Below are positions 16,494-44,168 of a DNA stretch of 64,000 bases, one piece after another. The stretch comes from Paludisphaera mucosa (GTDB taxonomy: Bacteria; Planctomycetota; Planctomycetia; Isosphaerales; Isosphaeraceae). The notes under the pieces are model-generated. The model saw only the letters and a list, made by a program, of their open reading frames with translations, was not told where the DNA came from and did not search any database. Location: positions 2,098,808 to 2,162,807 of the forward strand of contig NZ_JARRAG010000001.1 in assembly GCF_029589435.1 (NCBI RefSeq), written 5' to 3'. The position numbers and the translations under genes were made by a program. Numbering within the stretch: the stretch's first letter is position 1; every line of letters starts with the position of its first letter.

Positions 16494-18824
16494 ATGAACC
16501 GACCTCGTCGTTGCGCCCTGCTGGCGTCGGGCTTCCTCGTCGCGGCGACGGCGGCGACGGCGGCCCCTCCGAAGCTGAGCGACGCCGCCCCGTTCGGCGT
16601 GCGTCGCGGCGAGGCCGCCGAGGTCACGCTCACGGGGACCGACCTGGGGGCCAACCCCCGTCTGATCGCCCCCTTCCCGTTCCAGGTCGAGGCCCTGCCC
16701 CCCGAGCGCAGCAAGCCCGAGGCCTGGGCCTTCAAGATCGTCGTGCCCGCGACGGTCGCCGTCGGCGCGTATCCGATCCGCGTGCAGACCGACGACGGCG
16801 TGTCGAGCCCCCTGCTCTTCGCGGTCGGGCAGTTGCCGCAGGTCGCCGAGGTCGAGGAGAACAGCCGGTTCGAGGCCCCTCAGGCGCTCGCGGCGACGCC
16901 CGTGGACGTCGAAGGCCGCGTCGCCGGCAACGACGTGGACTTCTACAAGTTCGCGGGCAAGAAGGGCCAGCGGATCGTCGTCGACGCCCAGTGCGCACGA
17001 GTCGGCTCGGGCATCGACCCGTCGATCAAGCTGTCGCAGGCGACCCCGACGCGGCGATTCATGGCCGCGGCCGACGACACGCCGGGCCTGCTGACCGACG
17101 CCCGGCTGACGACCGAGCTGCCCGAGGACGGCGACTACGTCGTCGAGCTCTCCGACTCGCGATACGCGGGCGGCGGCCGGCCCATCTATCGCCTGCTGAT
17201 CGGCGAGATCCCCATCGCCGACGAAGTCTACCCCCTCGGCGGCCGGGCCGGCGAGACCGACGGCTTCGAGCTGCGCGGCGGGACCTCGGCCGAGATCCGG
17301 ACGGCCGTCGCTCGGCTCGTCCCCCTGCCGAACACCGCCATCCATCCGCCCCTGTTCGCCGGGGCGAACGGCCTCGACGTGGAATCGCTGCGGCCGCTGG
17401 TGGTCTCGGACGCCCCCGAGATTCGCGAGCCGGCCGATCCGGCCGCCGCGCCGGTCCGGGTCGCCGCGCCCGTCGTGCTCAACGGCCGCATCGATACCCC
17501 GGGCGACGAGGACCGCTTCGTCGTGGCGACCAAGCCGGGCGCCAAGCTGAAGATTCGGGTCGACGCCGGCCGGCTGGGTTCGAGCCTCGACGGCGTGCTG
17601 CAGGTGCTGAACGCCAAGGGCGCCGCCATCGCCAACGCCGACGACCAGTCGACGCCCGGGCCGATGAAGAACGGCGTCGCCGTGAAGATGATCGACCCCG
17701 ACCCGGCCCTGACGGTCGACGTCCCCGCCGACGTCGACGAGATCACGCTCGTCCTGCGCGACCTGGAGAAGCGCGGGGGGGTCGGCTTCCCGTATCGGAT
17801 CGTCGTCGAGCCCGCCGCGCCGGGTTTCGAAATCGCACTCGACGCCTCCGAGTCGAACGTGCCCCGCGGCGGCTCCGCGGTCGTCGCCGTGACGCTCGAC
17901 CGCAAGGGCTACGACGGGCCGGTTACGCTTTCCGTGCTCGACCCGCCCGCGGGGCTGACGTTCCGGCCGGGCAGCATCGCGGCGGGCCAGGCGATCGGGA
18001 GGATCTCGCTGGCGGCGGCCGGCGACGCCGCGTTCGCCGTCGCCGACCTCAAGATCGTCGGCGAGGCCGCCGGCCCGGCCGGGCCGATACGGCGCATCGC
18101 CTCGCGCCGGGACGTCTTCGCCCAGCAGGATTACCTGGCGACGAACGTCCGCGAACGCGAGGCCCTGGCGACGGCCCCGACGCTGCCGGGGCTCGTCACG
18201 CTCGACGCGCCCGCCGGGCCGATCGAGGCCGTCCACGGCCAGCCGGCGACGATCCCGGTCAAGATCGCGCGCACGGCCGGGGCCGACGCGGCGATGGACC
18301 TGACCGCCCTGACCTTGCCGGCCGGGTTCACGGCCGCGGTCGTCAAGGTCGCCGAGAAGGCCGACCAGGCGGCGCTCGTCGTCGCCGTCGGGGCCGACGC
18401 GGCGCTCGGGGCCACGACGATCGGCTTCAACGCCAAGGGCAAGTTCGCGCCCGGCGAGCGGACGATCGACGCCCCCGTCGTCGCCCTCAACGTCGTCCGG
18501 CCGATCGAACTGACCCTGGAGAAGCCGGCCTACGAGGCGGCCCCCGGCGCGACGGTGGAACTCAAGGGCAAGGTCGTCCGCAAGGGGGCCTTCAAGGACC
18601 CCGTCGTCGTGAAGCTGGATGGGCTCCCCGCGGGCCTCAAGGCCGAGCCGACCACCGTCGCCCCCGAGGCGACGGACTTCGTCGTCAAGGTCGTCGCCGA
18701 CGCCGACGCCAAGCCGGCCGAGGCCGCCGCCAAGGCCCTCGCCGCGTTCCAGATCGACAAGAAGGACTACGCCTTCCCCCCCGCCCCGGTCGCCTTCAAG
18801 ATCGTCGCGGCCCAGCCGAAATGA
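16494..18824 (+). CDS. Secreted PPC-domain protein with Ig-like repeats
   Basis: 776 residues, signal peptide (LASGFLVAATAATA). The N-terminal part has an IPT/TIG-like segment (FGVRRGEAAEVTLTGTDLG). Two bacterial pre-peptidase C-terminal (PPC) beta domains follow, one near residues 120-245 (NDVDFYKFAGKKGQRIVVDA, then LPEDGDYVVELSDSRYAGGG) and one near 325-450 (DEDRFVVATKPGAKLKIRV). Several Ig-like strands then form the C-terminus. This architecture is common in planctomycetes beside cytochrome c/WD40 or DUF1549 genes. It is probably a binding scaffold; no catalytic residues are evident. Its stop forms an ATGA with a possible start of the next gene, indicating an operon. Confidence 0.85.
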   Translation: MNRPRRCALLASGFLVAATAATAAPPKLSDAAPFGVRRGEAAEVTLTGTDLGANPRLIAPFPFQVEALPPERSKPEAWAFKIVVPATVAVGAYPIRVQTDDGVSSPLLFAVGQLPQVAEVEENSRFEAPQALAATPVDVEGRVAGNDVDFYKFAGKKGQRIVVDAQCARVGSGIDPSIKLSQATPTRRFMAAADDTPGLLTDARLTTELPEDGDYVVELSDSRYAGGGRPIYRLLIGEIPIADEVYPLGGRAGETDGFELRGGTSAEIRTAVARLVPLPNTAIHPPLFAGANGLDVESLRPLVVSDAPEIREPADPAAAPVRVAAPVVLNGRIDTPGDEDRFVVATKPGAKLKIRVDAGRLGSSLDGVLQVLNAKGAAIANADDQSTPGPMKNGVAVKMIDPDPALTVDVPADVDEITLVLRDLEKRGGVGFPYRIVVEPAAPGFEIALDASESNVPRGGSAVVAVTLDRKGYDGPVTLSVLDPPAGLTFRPGSIAAGQAIGRISLAAAGDAAFAVADLKIVGEAAGPAGPIRRIASRRDVFAQQDYLATNVREREALATAPTLPGLVTLDAPAGPIEAVHGQPATIPVKIARTAGADAAMDLTALTLPAGFTAAVVKVAEKADQAALVVAVGADAALGATTIGFNAKGKFAPGERTIDAPVVALNVVRPIELTLEKPAYEAAPGATVELKGKVVRKGAFKDPVVVKLDGLPAGLKAEPTTVAPEATDFVVKVVADADAKPAEAAAKALAAFQIDKKDYAFPPAPVAFKIVAAQPK

Positions 18825-38068: not shown

Positions 38069-38815
38069 TCATCGTCGGTCGACGGAACCGCCGATTCGCG
38101 CCAGGTCGTCGAAGGTCCGATGCTCCTGTTCGAGGAGCCTCGTCACGCGCATTCGGTACTGGAAATATCGGAACGCGGGCGAGGGGTGGGTCTCGCCGGC
38201 GACGTCCAGCCTGCGGCCTTCCGCTTCCGGGAAGCTGCCGCCGCCGGCGACGTAGTCGCAGTAGCCCTCGACCAGCCAAAGGGGCAGCCGGGACGCGCGC
38301 CAGAGGCCCAGGCGTCGGCGGATGAGGCCGTGCGTCGCCTCGTGGGCGACGAGGCCGGTGAAGGCCCGCGTACGGTACTCGGCGGCGAGGCTGCAGGCCA
38401 CGTCCGCGTCGAGGTCGGCCGCGGCGACGAAGACGTTGTCGGTCAAGGGCGCCGACACGGCGAAGGCGCCGCCGGACAGCGGCGCGAAGAAGCGATAGAG
38501 CCAGGGCGAGTTGCACAGGAAGATCCGCTCGGTCCGGCCGGGCGCGGCCAGCTCGCAGCGGTCGATCAGGTCGCGGGCCTTCCCGAGCCGTTCGGCGGCC
38601 GCCGGCGGGATCGGTCGGCTCGAATAGAGCGTGATCCCGCGCTCGCGGATGCTGTGGGCGAAGAGCACCTGCGGGAAGGCGTGGAGGGCCGCATACGCCA
38701 GCGTCAACGCCACGAACGGCCGCTCGAATCGACGCAGCACGCGCCCGAGCCGCGTCCTGGGCGCGGGCCGGCCGATGCCGAGGATGCGAAGCAGGCCCCG
38801 AGCCGTCCGGTTCAT
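38069..38815 (-). CDS. Membrane-anchored metallopeptidase-like protein with HExxH motif
   Basis: 248 residues. GGGAAGG precedes the ATG at 38815. One N-terminal hydrophobic segment (FVALTLAYAALHAFPQVLF) is followed by an extracytoplasmic region. A zincin-like helix with HEATHGLIRRRL (HExxH, residues about 162-166) and a downstream acidic helix (WLVEGYCDYVAGGG), whose Glu may be the third ligand, give a gluzincin-like arrangement. I do not recognise a named family. The neighbour upstream on the same strand is the phytochrome gene, 167 bp away. Confidence 0.65.
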   Translation of the reverse strand: MNRTARGLLRILGIGRPAPRTRLGRVLRRFERPFVALTLAYAALHAFPQVLFAHSIRERGITLYSSRPIPPAAAERLGKARDLIDRCELAAPGRTERIFLCNSPWLYRFFAPLSGGAFAVSAPLTDNVFVAAADLDADVACSLAAEYRTRAFTGLVAHEATHGLIRRRLGLWRASRLPLWLVEGYCDYVAGGGSFPEAEGRRLDVAGETHPSPAFRYFQYRMRVTRLLEQEHRTFDDLARIGGSVDRR

Positions 38816-38982: not shown

Positions 38983-41900
38983 TCACGCCCGGCCGACCGG
39001 TCGCTTGCGATCGACGGAGGGAATCCTCCGCGGCTCCGGACGCCCCTGGTTTGGAGACGCCGACGAGGCGGGCGGGACGTCGACCGCGAAGTCTTCCTCG
39101 GGCATGGGACGGCCGATGTAGTAGCCCTGCGCCTGGTCGCAGCGCATCGCGGCGAGCCGTTCGAGCGTGTCGCCGTCCTCGATCCCCTCGGCGACGACCC
39201 GCAGCCCGAGTTCGTGGCCCATGGTGATGATCGCCTTGACGATCGCGGCGTCGGCGTTGGAGGTGATCATCTCCTGGACGAACGCCCGGTCGATCTTCAG
39301 CTCGTCCACGGGGAGTCGGCGGAGACAGGCCAGGGACGAGCAGCCGATCCCGAAGTCGTCGACCGAGACCCTCAGGCCGAAGTCGGATCGCAGGCGGGTC
39401 AGGGCGCGGGCGGCGCCCGCCGGGTCTTGCATCAGGGCGCTCTCGGTGATCTCCAGGGTGAGCCACGAGGCCGGCAGGTCGGCCTTCACGAGTCGGCCGG
39501 CGAGCGCCTGGTAGGGCGTGTCGCGGTGCAGGAACCGGGGGGCGACGTTCACGGCGACGCCCAGGGCGACCCCCTGATCGCGCCAGCGACGGTGCCGGTC
39601 GATCGCCTGGCCGAACGCCCAGTGCTCCAGGCGGCCGGTCAGGTCGCCGTGCTCCGCCAGCGGGATGAAGCTGGAGGGAGGGATCATGCCCAGTCGGGGA
39701 TGCGGCCAACGCGCCAGGGCCTCGACCCCTTCGATCCGACGGGTCGCGAGGTTCATCTTGGGCTGGTAGTGCAGGACCAGCCCGCCGGTCTCGATCGCCT
39801 CCCGGAGATCGCTCATCAGGGCCAGCCGCCGCGGGCTGTCGTCGTCCGGATCGGCCGAGTAGACCGCGAAGCCCCCGCCGGAACGCTTCGCGGCGTACAT
39901 GGCGACGTCCGCGCGGCGCAGGAGCGTCTCGGGGTCGTCGCCGTGACGCGGGGCCAGGGCGACGCCGATGCTGCCGCCGACGTCGCAGTTCCGCTCGTCG
40001 ATCTGGAACGGAGCCTCCAATTCGTACAAAAGCCGTCGGGCGATGGCGACGGCGTCGCGCTCGCACGTGCGGGGCAGCAGCATCACGAATTCGTCGCCGC
40101 CCAGGCGGGCCAGCGTGTCGGTCGCCCGCAGGAGCTCTCGGAACCGCGCGGCGACCTGCTGGAGCAAAAGGTCGCCGAAATGGTGGCCCAGCGTGTCGTT
40201 CACCTCCTTGAAGCGGTCGAGGTCGATCAGCAGGAGCGCGGGGGGCGACGTCACGTTCAGGATCGCCTGCTCCAGCCGCTCCATGAACAGCAGGCGGTTG
40301 GGCAGGCCGGTGAGGGCGTCGTGCCGCGACTGGTGGTCGAGCTTCTCCTCGATCCGCTTCCGGCGGACGGCCGCCATGAGGACGTTGGCGATGAGCTGGA
40401 GGAAGTGCTCGTCCTCCGCGTCGAACCGGCCCGCGCGATGGGCGTAGGCGACCAGGACGCCGTAGGTCGCGTCGGAATCCTTCACCGGGACGGCGATCCC
40501 GCTCACGACGCCCAGCCGCGCGTGCAGCCGGCAGCCCTCGAACCGGTCCTCGTCGCGCAGGTCGGCGGCCACGACCGGGCGGTCCGCAGAGACGGCGAAA
40601 GCGGCCAGGGGGTCGTCGATCGTCGCCGAAGCCGGGGCGGCCTCGGCGATGTCGGGCGGCGCGACCTCGGCGCGGATCACCAGCGCCTCGCGGCCGGGGA
40701 CCGCCTGGAAGAGGCGGCAGATCTCGACGTCGAGGGTCTGCGCGATGAGCGCGACGGCCTCGGCGAACAGGCTCTCGGTGTCGGTCGAGGCCAGCGCCCG
40801 GTTCCCCAGCTCGGTGATCGCATCCTTCCGCCGCGCACGGGCCCGGAGTTCGTCCTCGCCCGTCAACAGGTGCTGGATGGTCTCCTTGAGCTCGACGGCC
40901 GCCGCCGTCTCGGACGACTTCCAGCGTTTCGAATGCAGGGTGACGGCCTTCCGCCAGAGGTCGAACGATTTTCGGGGGTGCAGGCGGGCCTCGCCGTTCA
41001 CGCGGCTCATCGGCTTGTCGGGATCGCCGGCCCAGTTCATCACGCGGACGACCTCGGGGCGGAACCAGAGGAGATAGTCGCCCCGGTCGCGCGAGATCTC
41101 CACGCCGAGCATGCCGCTGGCCTCGTCCTTGAAGGCGACGGCCGGTGGATAGGCGGCCGCGAGCGATTCCGAGGCGAAGGACCCCCGGTCGAGCGAGCCG
41201 GTCATCATCTTGATCAGGCCGGGGATCTCCGTCTCGTCGGGGGTCCGGCCGACGAGGGTGCATTTCATCCCCTCGACGACTGCGGCGCCCTGGGCGTCGA
41301 CGAAGTCCAGGAGGCTCGTCGGATCCGCCGCCAGGCCCTTGAGGGAGGACGCGCGCGACAGGGCGTTGAGGAAGCGGATCTGGATGGCCGAGGTCTGCAC
41401 GCGGTAGGCGCGCTCGGCGCCGTCTTCACGCATGTTGAGCTGGGTCTCGATGATCTCGGCGAGGAACGAGCAGGTGAGCCGCCGCTCGGGGCAGACGCGC
41501 CTGGGGGTGTAGTGATGGCAGGCGATCAGGCCCCAGAGCGCCCCGTTCTTCAGGAGGGACACGCTCATGGTGGCCGCGACGCCCATATTCCGGAGGTACT
41601 CCAGGTGCACCGGCGAGACGCTCCGCAGCACGCACTGGCTCATGTCAAGCGGGCGGCCGCGGGCCTCGCCCTCGCCGTCGACCAGGCCCGCGGGGGCGTA
41701 GCCGACGTCCGGGATGCAGCGTAGCCGGTTCGTCGTGTAGAGCCGTCGCGCCTGCTCGGGGATGTCCGACGCCGGGAAGTGGAGCCCCAGGTAGGACGAC
41801 GCGATCCGGGCGTCCCGCGACTCGGCGATCACCTCGCCGTTCCATACCGCGTCGAAGCGATAGACCATGACGCGGTCGTAGCCGATGATCCGGCGCACCT

Positions 41901-42402
41901 CGTCGGCCGCCGCCTGGCAGAGCGTCTCCTCGCTCTCGGTCGCCTGCAGCCGGGCGGTCGCCAGCCGGACCTCCTGGTAGAAGGTGTGGAAGTCCCCCAC
42001 CTCCCCCGGCTCGATCGGCTCGGCCTCGACCACCAGCTCGCCGTCGCTCCCGTGCACCAGCACGTTGAACGCGCGGCCCCCCTCTCGACCAGGCAGCGTC
42101 AGCTTCAACGGGTTGGCTCGGATGAGGTCGTCCCCCCGCAGGATCATCCGCAGGTGGGCGCCCTGATCCTCGCCGAGGAGCGATTCCAGCGGTCGATCGA
42201 CCAGTTCCTCGGCCGGGACGCCCACCAGGAACGCCGAATTCGCGCTGGCGCGGCGGACCCGGAAGCTCGCCTCGTCGACGACCAGCAACAGGCCGTGGGG
42301 CTGGATCTTCTCGGGGATGTGGATCGGCTCGCGGGAGCAGTTCGTCAGGTCGACCGCGGCGCCGGCCGGGGATTTCCCATCGGATCGCGATTCATGCAGC
42401 AT
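38983..42402 (-). CDS. Bacteriophytochrome with GAF, GGDEF and EAL domains
   Basis: 1139 residues from the ATG at 42402. PAS domain with the biliverdin-binding Cys 22 (DLTNCSREPIHIPEKIQPHG), then a phytochrome GAF with PASDIPEQARRLY and DPV/PDV-region segments, then PHY. A second GAF lies at about 530-690. The GGDEF domain (about residue 766, RLGGDEFVMLLPR) has an I-site RATD five residues upstream. The EAL domain (from about 893, GVEALARW) keeps LEITES, DDFGIG, KIDR, AEGIE and QGYYIGRP. Both catalytic sites look intact, so red/far-red light probably switches between making and degrading cyclic di-GMP. The start overlaps the preceding gene by 11 bp. No bphO heme oxygenase gene is adjacent. 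Confidence 0.93.
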   Translation of the reverse strand: MLHESRSDGKSPAGAAVDLTNCSREPIHIPEKIQPHGLLLVVDEASFRVRRASANSAFLVGVPAEELVDRPLESLLGEDQGAHLRMILRGDDLIRANPLKLTLPGREGGRAFNVLVHGSDGELVVEAEPIEPGEVGDFHTFYQEVRLATARLQATESEETLCQAAADEVRRIIGYDRVMVYRFDAVWNGEVIAESRDARIASSYLGLHFPASDIPEQARRLYTTNRLRCIPDVGYAPAGLVDGEGEARGRPLDMSQCVLRSVSPVHLEYLRNMGVAATMSVSLLKNGALWGLIACHHYTPRRVCPERRLTCSFLAEIIETQLNMREDGAERAYRVQTSAIQIRFLNALSRASSLKGLAADPTSLLDFVDAQGAAVVEGMKCTLVGRTPDETEIPGLIKMMTGSLDRGSFASESLAAAYPPAVAFKDEASGMLGVEISRDRGDYLLWFRPEVVRVMNWAGDPDKPMSRVNGEARLHPRKSFDLWRKAVTLHSKRWKSSETAAAVELKETIQHLLTGEDELRARARRKDAITELGNRALASTDTESLFAEAVALIAQTLDVEICRLFQAVPGREALVIRAEVAPPDIAEAAPASATIDDPLAAFAVSADRPVVAADLRDEDRFEGCRLHARLGVVSGIAVPVKDSDATYGVLVAYAHRAGRFDAEDEHFLQLIANVLMAAVRRKRIEEKLDHQSRHDALTGLPNRLLFMERLEQAILNVTSPPALLLIDLDRFKEVNDTLGHHFGDLLLQQVAARFRELLRATDTLARLGGDEFVMLLPRTCERDAVAIARRLLYELEAPFQIDERNCDVGGSIGVALAPRHGDDPETLLRRADVAMYAAKRSGGGFAVYSADPDDDSPRRLALMSDLREAIETGGLVLHYQPKMNLATRRIEGVEALARWPHPRLGMIPPSSFIPLAEHGDLTGRLEHWAFGQAIDRHRRWRDQGVALGVAVNVAPRFLHRDTPYQALAGRLVKADLPASWLTLEITESALMQDPAGAARALTRLRSDFGLRVSVDDFGIGCSSLACLRRLPVDELKIDRAFVQEMITSNADAAIVKAIITMGHELGLRVVAEGIEDGDTLERLAAMRCDQAQGYYIGRPMPEEDFAVDVPPASSASPNQGRPEPRRIPSVDRKRPVGRA

Positions 42403-42913
42403 GGGAGAGCCACCGATCCAGGGCCGCGAACGTCCGACGGGCGGGATGGACCACGAGGTCGGAATCGCCGCAGCGGTGACAGGGCCGGGCCGGGGCCGCC
42501 GGGAAGGACGACCACGTGGGCCTGACTTCGGCCCCGTAGCCATGGAAGAACGAACAGCCCCGGGCCTCGTCCCCGGGCAGGACGTCGCAGACGTGTGCGG
42601 CGATGATCCGGCCGCCGAGCGGAGGCCGCCCGCATCCGGGCGACCGCTCGACTTCCTCGCGTTCGCCGGCGAGCGCGGCCAGGTCCTCGCTCAACTGCGG
42701 GAGTTTGACGTGGTCCCGGAGGTGGAACTCCGGATCGTCCCGGCTCTCGAACGACGCCAGACGGTCCTCGATCGGCCTGTCGAAGTCGGAATGCGGATTC
42801 TCGATCGCGGCAAGCTCGCGCAGCGTGAGATCGGCGGTCGGCGAGCCTCGCGTCCGGGAACCCATGGCGCCGTGGAGGCCGCGGGCGCCCTCTCGAAACT
42901 TCGCGCGGATCAT
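42392..42913 (-). CDS. Unknown protein encoded upstream of and overlapping the phytochrome gene
   Basis: 173 residues; the ATG at 42913 has GGAGGAT upstream. The N-terminus is basic, the middle is charged (LRELAAIENPHSDFDRPIED, then DHVKLPQLSEDLAAL), and the C-terminal third has several Cys/His residues (GCGRPP, AAHVCDVLPGDEARGCSFFHG, CHRCGDSD) that could form a zinc site. Its stop lies 11 bp inside the phytochrome gene, so translation is coupled. It is not a heme oxygenase and has no response-regulator receiver motif. Possibly a partner or regulator of the photoreceptor; no family recognised. Confidence 0.65.
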   Translation of the reverse strand: MIRAKFREGARGLHGAMGSRTRGSPTADLTLRELAAIENPHSDFDRPIEDRLASFESRDDPEFHLRDHVKLPQLSEDLAALAGEREEVERSPGCGRPPLGGRIIAAHVCDVLPGDEARGCSFFHGYGAEVRPTWSSFPAAPARPCHRCGDSDLVVHPARRTFAALDRWLSHAA

Positions 42914-43304
42914 GCGTCGATCCTCCGACGGCCGACGCGCCCGCCGCGTCGCGAGGCGCCGTCACCCGAGCTGCGGCGAAGTCATGCGTCCCCGCCGCCC
43001 TGATCATCCACCACGTCCTCATCGAAAAGATAGGACATGGAAAGCTCCAGCCCAATCTCGGCCGCCGACCGAGCGGAACCGACTCGGATGGCCAGGATGA
43101 AACCGATCGGTCGATCTGATCCGCCCGGGAAACCTCGCCAGGGGCCGATGCGGCGGCCGGAGCGTTTAGAAAATGCATCAACCTAGGAATTTCGTCCTAT
43201 CATTCACACGTTTTTTTTGCATTGATGCTTCAAGGCGTTACGATGCGTCCCGCGGCGCTCCTGTCGGCCCGCCCCACGGAAGTCTTGCCTGCCGGAGTCC
43301 GTCC
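42914..43304. other. Divergent control region, phytochrome operon / PEP-CTERM gene
   Basis: 391 bp without a gene, AT-rich from 43150 to 43230. It contains inverted copies GATAGGAC (43029-43036) and GTCCTATC (43194-43201), a hairpin TAGGA-N6-TCCTA (43184-43199) and an outer repeat GCATCAA (43175-43181) / TTGATGC (43222-43228) with a T8 run between. A TATCAT box (43198-43203) could serve the PEP-CTERM gene. Confidence 0.35.
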
Positions 43305-44168
43305 ATGCGATCCATCCTCACCGCGTCATTCGCCCGCGTTTCCGCTTTGTCGTTGGCGGCTGCGGTCTCGCTGGCGCCGGGCGTCGCCCACGCCGGCATC
43401 GAATTCGTCGATCAATTCCGCTCGCGCTTTTCCACGCAGACCGGCGACGGCCCCGCCGTGACCGACCTCGGCTACGCCTTCTCGACGAGGCTCTTCGCCA
43501 GCGCCCCGAACTTCTACAACACCGTGGGCATGACCGGCCCCGGCGGCACGGTCGACCTCACGGCCGACGTCTCGAATCCCTCGGTCTACAGCTACGGGTC
43601 CAGCCTGTTCGCCAGCAAGTCGGACATGGACGCGGCCTTCCCGATCGCCGCGACCTACGACTACCTGGCGACCTCCGGGTCCGGGCCGGATGCGACGAGC
43701 CTGACGCCCGGGGCCGACGATTATCCCCAGTCGACGCCCTACCTGGCCGGCACGACCTACTCCGATCTCCAGGGTGTGAACGCCGGGCAGGCCATCCAGG
43801 TCGCCTTCAGCTCGTTCGACACCGGGGGGAGCGCCAGCGAGTCGTTCATCTTCTTCACGATCTTCGACCTCACGCTGGGCCAGTCGGTTTACGACGCGGG
43901 ATTCCTCCCCGCCACGACGACCGGAGTCACGCTCGGGGCCGGCGTCCTGCAGGCCGGGCACTCGTTCAGCTACGAGCTGAACTTCTCCAACCGGGAACTC
44001 GTCTCGACGCCGGGCACCGGGTTCGACTCGCAGCTCGGGTTCGACTACCGGACCAGCGGGACCTTCTCGACGTCCGCGGTCCCCGAGCCCTCCACGCTGG
44101 TCCTGGCCGGCATCGGCGCGGTGGGAATCCTCGTCTCCAGCCGCCGCGGCCGTCGCACGGCCCGCTGA
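43305..44168 (+). CDS. PEP-CTERM sorting domain protein (first)
   Basis: 287 residues from ATG 43305, giving a signal peptide (LSLAAAVSLAPGVAHA). The body is beta-rich, Ser/Thr/Gly-rich and has no recognised catalytic motif. The C-terminus has the complete PEP-CTERM signal: VPEPST, a hydrophobic helix (LVLAGIGAVGILV) and the basic tail SSRRGRR. Such proteins are processed by an exosortase and often exported to the outer surface or matrix. No exosortase is encoded in the window. It is followed by a 14-bp perfect hairpin. Confidence 0.85.
   Translation: MRSILTASFARVSALSLAAAVSLAPGVAHAGIEFVDQFRSRFSTQTGDGPAVTDLGYAFSTRLFASAPNFYNTVGMTGPGGTVDLTADVSNPSVYSYGSSLFASKSDMDAAFPIAATYDYLATSGSGPDATSLTPGADDYPQSTPYLAGTTYSDLQGVNAGQAIQVAFSSFDTGGSASESFIFFTIFDLTLGQSVYDAGFLPATTTGVTLGAGVLQAGHSFSYELNFSNRELVSTPGTGFDSQLGFDYRTSGTFSTSAVPEPSTLVLAGIGAVGILVSSRRGRRTAR

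Follow-up and report, generated by a model that had tools for sequence, protein, structure and literature searches.

The 64,000-nucleotide stretch of the Paludisphaera mucosa genome analysed here (hereafter the window) carries on its reverse strand a bacteriophytochrome gene with a GGDEF-EAL output and, directly ahead of it, an open reading frame (ORF) of 173 codons. As judged by profile comparison, this ORF is derived from bphO, the heme oxygenase gene, and the two genes probably constitute a bphO-bphP operon in which bphO is decaying, being redundant to an intact copy in trans. A first-pass annotation of the window had described the ORF as an unknown partner of the phytochrome and had considered bphO to be absent. 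The comparisons indicate instead that the 'unknown partner' and the 'missing' bphO are one and the same gene.

Identity of the small ORF

The ORF and the phytochrome start have 11 bp in common (42392-42402), an overlap that the first-pass annotation had already placed correctly. As a query against 45 genomes of the family, the 173-residue translation gave matches in 15, the genome of P. mucosa among them, and at the matched place in 13 of these 15 genomes there is a BphO-type heme oxygenase. The matches in the other two, G004 (E 0.0018, with an internal stop) and G022 (E 0.0063), are weak, coincide with no heme oxygenase and are probably due to chance. Within P. mucosa, residues 98-169 of the ORF match G000:C2:3948799 (E 1.4e-4), the same place as the Pfam Heme_oxygenase match.

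A hidden Markov model (HMM) was built from the BphOs of 13 relatives, with the ORF left out of the build; these 13 had originally been reached through the ORF itself. They are mutually alike (42.9-61.6% to the seed over all or most of its length), and 12 of them lie at Pfam heme oxygenase matches, the thirteenth (G040) being missed by Pfam. A further intact-looking BphO beside a phytochrome, at L046:3036-3611 (G024), was likewise missed by the Pfam heme oxygenase search, so Pfam can under-report the BphO family. When the BphO HMM was run against the six-frame translation of the window, the ORF was the sole significant match (E 1.2e-21, 73.0 bits), in two collinear segments at profile positions 3-97 and 117-189, and it is this match that identifies it as a bphO homologue. 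As a control, the residues of the ORF were shuffled 2000 times; the HMM reported 1170 of these sequences, the best at 6.4 bits. Profile match and shuffle control together rule out a chance ORF. Further, an alignment of 15 intact BphOs searched genome-wide retrieves the two halves of the ORF with 49.7 bits (E 1.7e-12) and 20.8 bits (E 0.00118), the 15 other matches being the rows of the alignment itself.

Two other identities were considered. An unknown family would agree with the lack of any meaningful match in PDB, Pfam and NCBIfam (the PDB sequence search with the ORF alone returned one line, E 2.1), yet the BphO HMM matches. The first-pass annotation had also pointed to a possible zinc-binding Cys/His cluster, which would make the ORF an unrelated small partner, a reading that we find scarcely credible. 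Cys and His residues do occur in the ORF, but it aligns with BphO across nearly its entire length, and the columns of Cys145, His146 and Cys148 hold neither Cys nor His in any of the 15 intact BphOs. The remaining candidates are common among BphOs: the column of Cys94 is Cys in 12 of the 15 and that of Cys120 in 7, while His14 occupies the invariant proximal-His column, which we take to be that of the heme ligand. The zinc site was rejected on this comparison.

Integrity of the probable bphO remnant

The ORF resembles the BphO-type heme oxygenases in its collinearity over the two profile segments and in the retained proximal-His position. Unlike them, it is short of 19 distal-helix residues and has lost 10 of 24 family-invariant columns, six by deletion and four by substitution. 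In the numbering of the intact BphO of P. mucosa, the deleted invariants are G107, Y110, V111, E113, G114 and T116 (each 15/15), and the distal-helix consensus YVLEG(A/S)TLGG is incomplete, its EG falling in the gap; the substituted ones are Leu6, Thr10, Tyr33 and Arg67. When the intact proteins were left out one at a time (n=15), each broke 0-2 of 24-26 invariant columns. Of the residues of the remnant, a share of 0.616 recurs in other family members at the corresponding alignment position, the lowest of 16 values, though the most distant intact BphO has 0.658. A frameshift hiding the distal helix was ruled out, as the six-frame scan of the window with the BphO HMM (open stretches of at least 30 residues, E<=1) picked up no additional piece around the ORF; the sole other line of that scan lies at 18134-18529 (6.9 bits, E 0.23).

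Predicted structures are in keeping with this damage. AlphaFold2 was run on the intact BphO of P. mucosa and on the remnant, with alignments of 15 or 16 rows. The intact protein is modelled with a pLDDT of 91.9 and a pTM of 0.89 and shows helices 102-117 and 119-130, presumably the distal helix that covers the heme, whereas the remnant (pLDDT 64.6, pTM 0.53) has a single helix, 101-111, in that region, the first of the two being absent. The nearest solved relatives of the intact BphO by sequence are 1sk7 (pa-HO) and 1j77 (HemO), and its model agrees with 1j77 at Z 23.0 and an rmsd of 2.1 over 186 residues. The best VIA Z of the remnant model, 11.8 (1wnw; rmsd 3.3 over 166 residues), is below the threshold of 13 that the tool states for helical bundles; the input alignment consisted of heme oxygenases and favours this fold.

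Several observations weigh against decay. The frame of the remnant is open, with neither stop nor frameshift, and the deletion is in-frame; a GGAGG stands at good spacing ahead of it; of the 18 invariant residues outside the deletion, 14 are kept; and no Pfam or NCBIfam model, PF01126 included, matches the ORF. Its GC content at third codon positions (GC3), 0.844, is lower than the 0.969 of the intact bphO of the same genome but only about one standard deviation (SD) below the mean of window ORFs (0.906, SD 0.057, n=37, chosen for strong GC3 periodicity), and 4 of 14 intact BphOs from relatives have GC3 values below that of the remnant, down to 0.66. GC3 decides little on the question of decay. 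The open frame, in-frame deletion, GGAGG, retained invariants and GC3 therefore make a still-selected, altered protein possible. No close relative carrying the same remnant was found. Overall, a decaying bphO is the most likely identity of the ORF.

Three ways in which the frame could still matter to the cell deserve attention. It could encode a maintained non-catalytic pseudoenzyme, descended from heme oxygenase, that modulates chromophore loading or signalling by binding heme or biliverdin or by docking on the phytochrome. The open frame, the good ribosome-binding site, the in-frame deletion, the overlap with the phytochrome start, the proximal-His position and the 14 of 18 retained invariants would all suit such a protein, but against it stand the loss of half the distal helix and a poorly predicted fold. 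Further, the one orthologous locus found (G001, below) keeps in recognisable form only the last 50 profile positions, which speaks against a common altered protein across the two genomes, and we regard the pseudoenzyme as improbable. Its more specific form, in which a pseudo-heme-oxygenase with half a distal helix takes heme or biliverdin made elsewhere and passes it to, or gates, the c-di-GMP (cyclic di-GMP) enzyme, appears somewhat more improbable again. That the 173-residue protein is a working, divergent heme oxygenase feeding the overlapping phytochrome is very improbable. Its homology is collinear and nearly full-length, the proximal-His position is kept and the gene stands before a phytochrome, as in several relatives, yet the six invariants in the gap, including the EG, are lost, and Leu6, Thr10, Tyr33 and Arg67 are replaced.

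Finally, the frame may be retained solely for translational coupling to the phytochrome start, with the protein itself irrelevant. A GGAGG precedes the remnant, only a GGTGG precedes the phytochrome start, and the two genes overlap by 11 bp; in G001, on the other hand, the N-terminal frame (a by-eye reading at 0.4 bits) stops before the phytochrome start, and coupling would not be conserved there. Retention for coupling alone is rather unlikely, and it can go together with the explanation by a decaying bphO.

The phytochrome and its output domains

The phytochrome (Table 1) has the PAS-GAF-PHY core of bacteriophytochromes (PF08446, PF01590, PF00360) with an N-terminal biliverdin Cys before PIHxP. 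This Cys22, in the context NCSREPIHIPEKIQPHG, pairs on alignment with the equivalent Cys of the solved structures 9jry and 6bap. A motif search found DIP, SPVH, CHH and PRKSF, and the nearest solved relative by sequence is the BphP-type photosensory module 9jry (E 5.6e-127). The second GAF, residues 540-679 (numbering converted from a 1186-aa reading), leads to a GGDEF domain whose I-site and active site read RATD-x5-GGDEF (RATDTLARLGGDEF at residue 759), and the EAL residue set EAL..N..E..DDFG..K..E..Q is complete by motif search. For the output half, the nearest solved relative is the GGDEF-EAL structure 4rnh (E 6.6e-100; database name 'Motility regulator'), which we take to be MorA.

The first-pass annotation had listed Cys22, the GGDEF with its I-site and the full EAL set, all of which are present by motifs and Pfam, and had held both synthesis and breakdown of c-di-GMP to be possible. 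Every motif tested is consistent with that view of a light-regulated enzyme able in principle to make and to degrade c-di-GMP; light is predicted to switch it. Both motif sets are present, and either activity may dominate. An alternative chromophore made by a bilin reductase was dropped, the Pfam search having found no PF05996 match in the genome.

Table 1. Features of the phytochrome locus (window coordinates).
Feature	Position	Strand	Basis
Putative bphO (heme oxygenase) remnant, open frame of 173 codons	42392..42913	-	Profile match, column comparison
GGAGG Shine-Dalgarno-like site, 8 nt before remnant ATG	42922..42926	-	Motif search
His14, proximal heme-ligand His position	42872..42874	-	Column His in 15/15 intact BphOs
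Junction lacking 19 BphO-profile residues (positions 98-116, first half of distal helix)	42619..42620	-	Profile and model comparison
Bacteriophytochrome, PAS-GAF-PHY-GAF-GGDEF-EAL, 1139 aa	38983..42402	-	ATG at 42402; Pfam and motifs
Cys22, predicted biliverdin attachment residue	42337..42339	-	Motif NCSREPIH at residue 21
PAS_2 domain	42016..42339	-	Pfam PF08446, E 4.8e-22
Chromophore-pocket GAF with DIP motif	41458..41928	-	Pfam PF01590, E 3.8e-30, and motif
PHY domain with PRKSF tongue motif	40861..41385	-	Pfam PF00360, E 2.4e-48, and motif
Second GAF, between PHY and GGDEF	40366..40785	-	Pfam PF13185, E 1.2e-11; PF13492, E 5e-9
GGDEF domain, RxxD I-site and GGDEF active site	39877..40326	-	Pfam PF00990, E 9.2e-47
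EAL domain, conserved acidic/Asn/Lys/Gln residues kept	39106..39810	-	Pfam PF00563, E 5.5e-66; alignment to 4rnh and motifs

Probable biliverdin supply in trans

A search for bphO elsewhere in the genome, as the first-pass annotation had proposed, yields one intact copy on another contig: G000:C2:3948799-3949353, the single heme oxygenase above the Pfam cut-off. It is oriented divergently to a gene for a histidine-kinase phytochrome that also has this Cys. The genome holds three phytochromes, each with a Cys before PIH, and the BphO from contig C2 would load all three with biliverdin. In G001, as in P. mucosa, a single intact heme oxygenase gene is present and neighbours a different phytochrome gene, and since both genomes keep such a copy, biliverdin for the present phytochrome is probably supplied in trans. 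Thus the expectation of the first-pass annotation that biliverdin comes from elsewhere probably stands, with a local bphO that looks broken and an intact one on the other contig, while its premise that bphO is absent falls.

The third phytochrome of the genome, G000:C2:2448051-2449532 (L063:2673-6800, minus strand), is a histidine kinase of the hybrid type that also contains an additional PAS, two response-regulator stretches and an Hpt; it sits on a long branch, and no bphO was found within 3 kb upstream of it.

These parts would probably work together as follows. Biliverdin on Cys22 would be isomerised by red/far-red light, and the signal would pass PHY and then the second GAF before reaching the GGDEF-EAL output, where light would shift c-di-GMP synthesis and/or breakdown. 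The first gene of the operon would once have encoded the heme oxygenase that produced the biliverdin of the phytochrome. As it is without 19 distal-helix residues and several invariants, the remnant probably does not cleave heme, and the intact bphO present on the other contig would now supply biliverdin, its redundancy presumably having relaxed selection on the local copy.

Comparison across relatives

At a threshold of E<=1e-150, 2 of the 45 family genomes match the phytochrome, P. mucosa included; the search at the level of the order covered the same 45 genomes. The sole full-length ortholog found, G001:C1:7423919-7427284, belongs to another genus, is 50% identical and has the same domain order, PAS-GAF-PHY-GAF-GGDEF-EAL. 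The two form a clade with support of 100/99 and branch lengths of 0.74 and 0.62. Beyond G001, no full-length ortholog was found in the genomes of the class (397) or of the phylum (392, a set in which G001 itself is not shown), with two candidates scored per listed genome. Among PLSDB plasmids, 19 records reached E<=1e-100, none of them covering 80% of the phytochrome query in one place. A contig scan with the whole phytochrome gave no orthologs among the best 80 of 182 relatives, where the listed matches begin at residue 496 or later and fall in or just ahead of the GGDEF-EAL half.

Before the G001 phytochrome, a fragment from the C-terminal part of bphO is recognised with 34.5 bits (profile 143-192), and an N-terminal-like stretch, read by eye at 0.4 bits, follows GGGGGAGG in a frame that differs from that of the C-terminal fragment. 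The first-pass annotation had named lack of conservation of the small ORF as a refutation, which holds only in part: what precedes the one ortholog found is likewise a bphO-derived remnant. Neutral remnants dating from the split of the two phytochromes would be too old to have stayed recognisable; because the phytochromes are only 50% identical, two separate, later decays of bphO, one in P. mucosa and one in G001, are likely.

In the wider family, a PHY match occurs in 17 of the 45 genomes and a BphO match in 16, with both in 14; PHY without BphO is seen in G010, G043 and G044, and BphO without PHY in G028 and G040. Upstream regions were checked for bphO at 24 of the 27 PHY matches, over up to 3 kb (only 1.4-2.2 kb at seven loci), giving 9 intact genes, 2 remnants and 13 loci with none found. 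The 2 remnants are those before the window phytochrome and before its G001 ortholog. At one of the 13, in G011, a heme oxygenase lies on the downstream side, about 2 kb from the phytochrome frame. The BphO-type heme oxygenases in the two genomes with no PHY-domain match (G028:C1:916841-917410 and G040:C1:656621-657181) may thus act in recovering iron or supply a different bilin-using protein.

Relation to known systems

A phytochrome core that drives a GGDEF-EAL pair is known from BphG1 of Rhodobacter sphaeroides and from the PadC-EAL proteins, and one domain of such tandems is often inactive, according to PMC9587094. The window phytochrome resembles these proteins in its biliverdin Cys and its DIP, PRxSF, GGDEF and EAL motifs; the whole motif list given there for PadC-EAL (NTS Cys, DIP, PRxSF, GGDEF/GGEEF, EAL/ExL) is found in it. 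In PadCs, according to the same paper, a coiled-coil linker joins photoreceptor and output module, whereas here a second GAF lies between them. The window phytochrome may work like PadC-EAL, although it is not assigned to that class because this GAF intervenes between PHY and GGDEF. The second GAF is a variation on the known phytochrome GGDEF-EAL type.

In Erythrobacter flavus 21-3, a heme oxygenase gene lies immediately upstream of BPHP-15570 (PMC12172448). The window operon is alike in having a heme oxygenase gene directly ahead of the phytochrome. It differs in that its heme oxygenase gene appears damaged and has an intact counterpart at another place in the genome. Phytochromes with GGDEF-EAL and phytochromes with an upstream heme oxygenase are already known, and what this locus adds is the decayed bphO; among open-licence PMC papers, no listed title or abstract opening describes one. 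Pfam and NCBIfam profiles do not pick up this decayed-looking gene, and other phytochromes described as lacking bphO may therefore conceal similar remnants. Two genera also provide a natural example of an operon that has apparently lost one of its partners in the presence of a copy in trans.

Neighbouring genes

Divergent from the bphO remnant, at 43173-44168 on the plus strand, lies a gene whose product carries a PEP-CTERM motif at its C-terminus (E 2.7e-6). Downstream of the phytochrome, at about 38069-38800 on the minus strand, a gene encodes a protein of about 243 aa that no Pfam model clearly matches (a weak BSP match has E 0.32); the protein reads VAHEATHGLIRRR and WLVEGYCDY and, in our own reading, looks like a small metallopeptidase.

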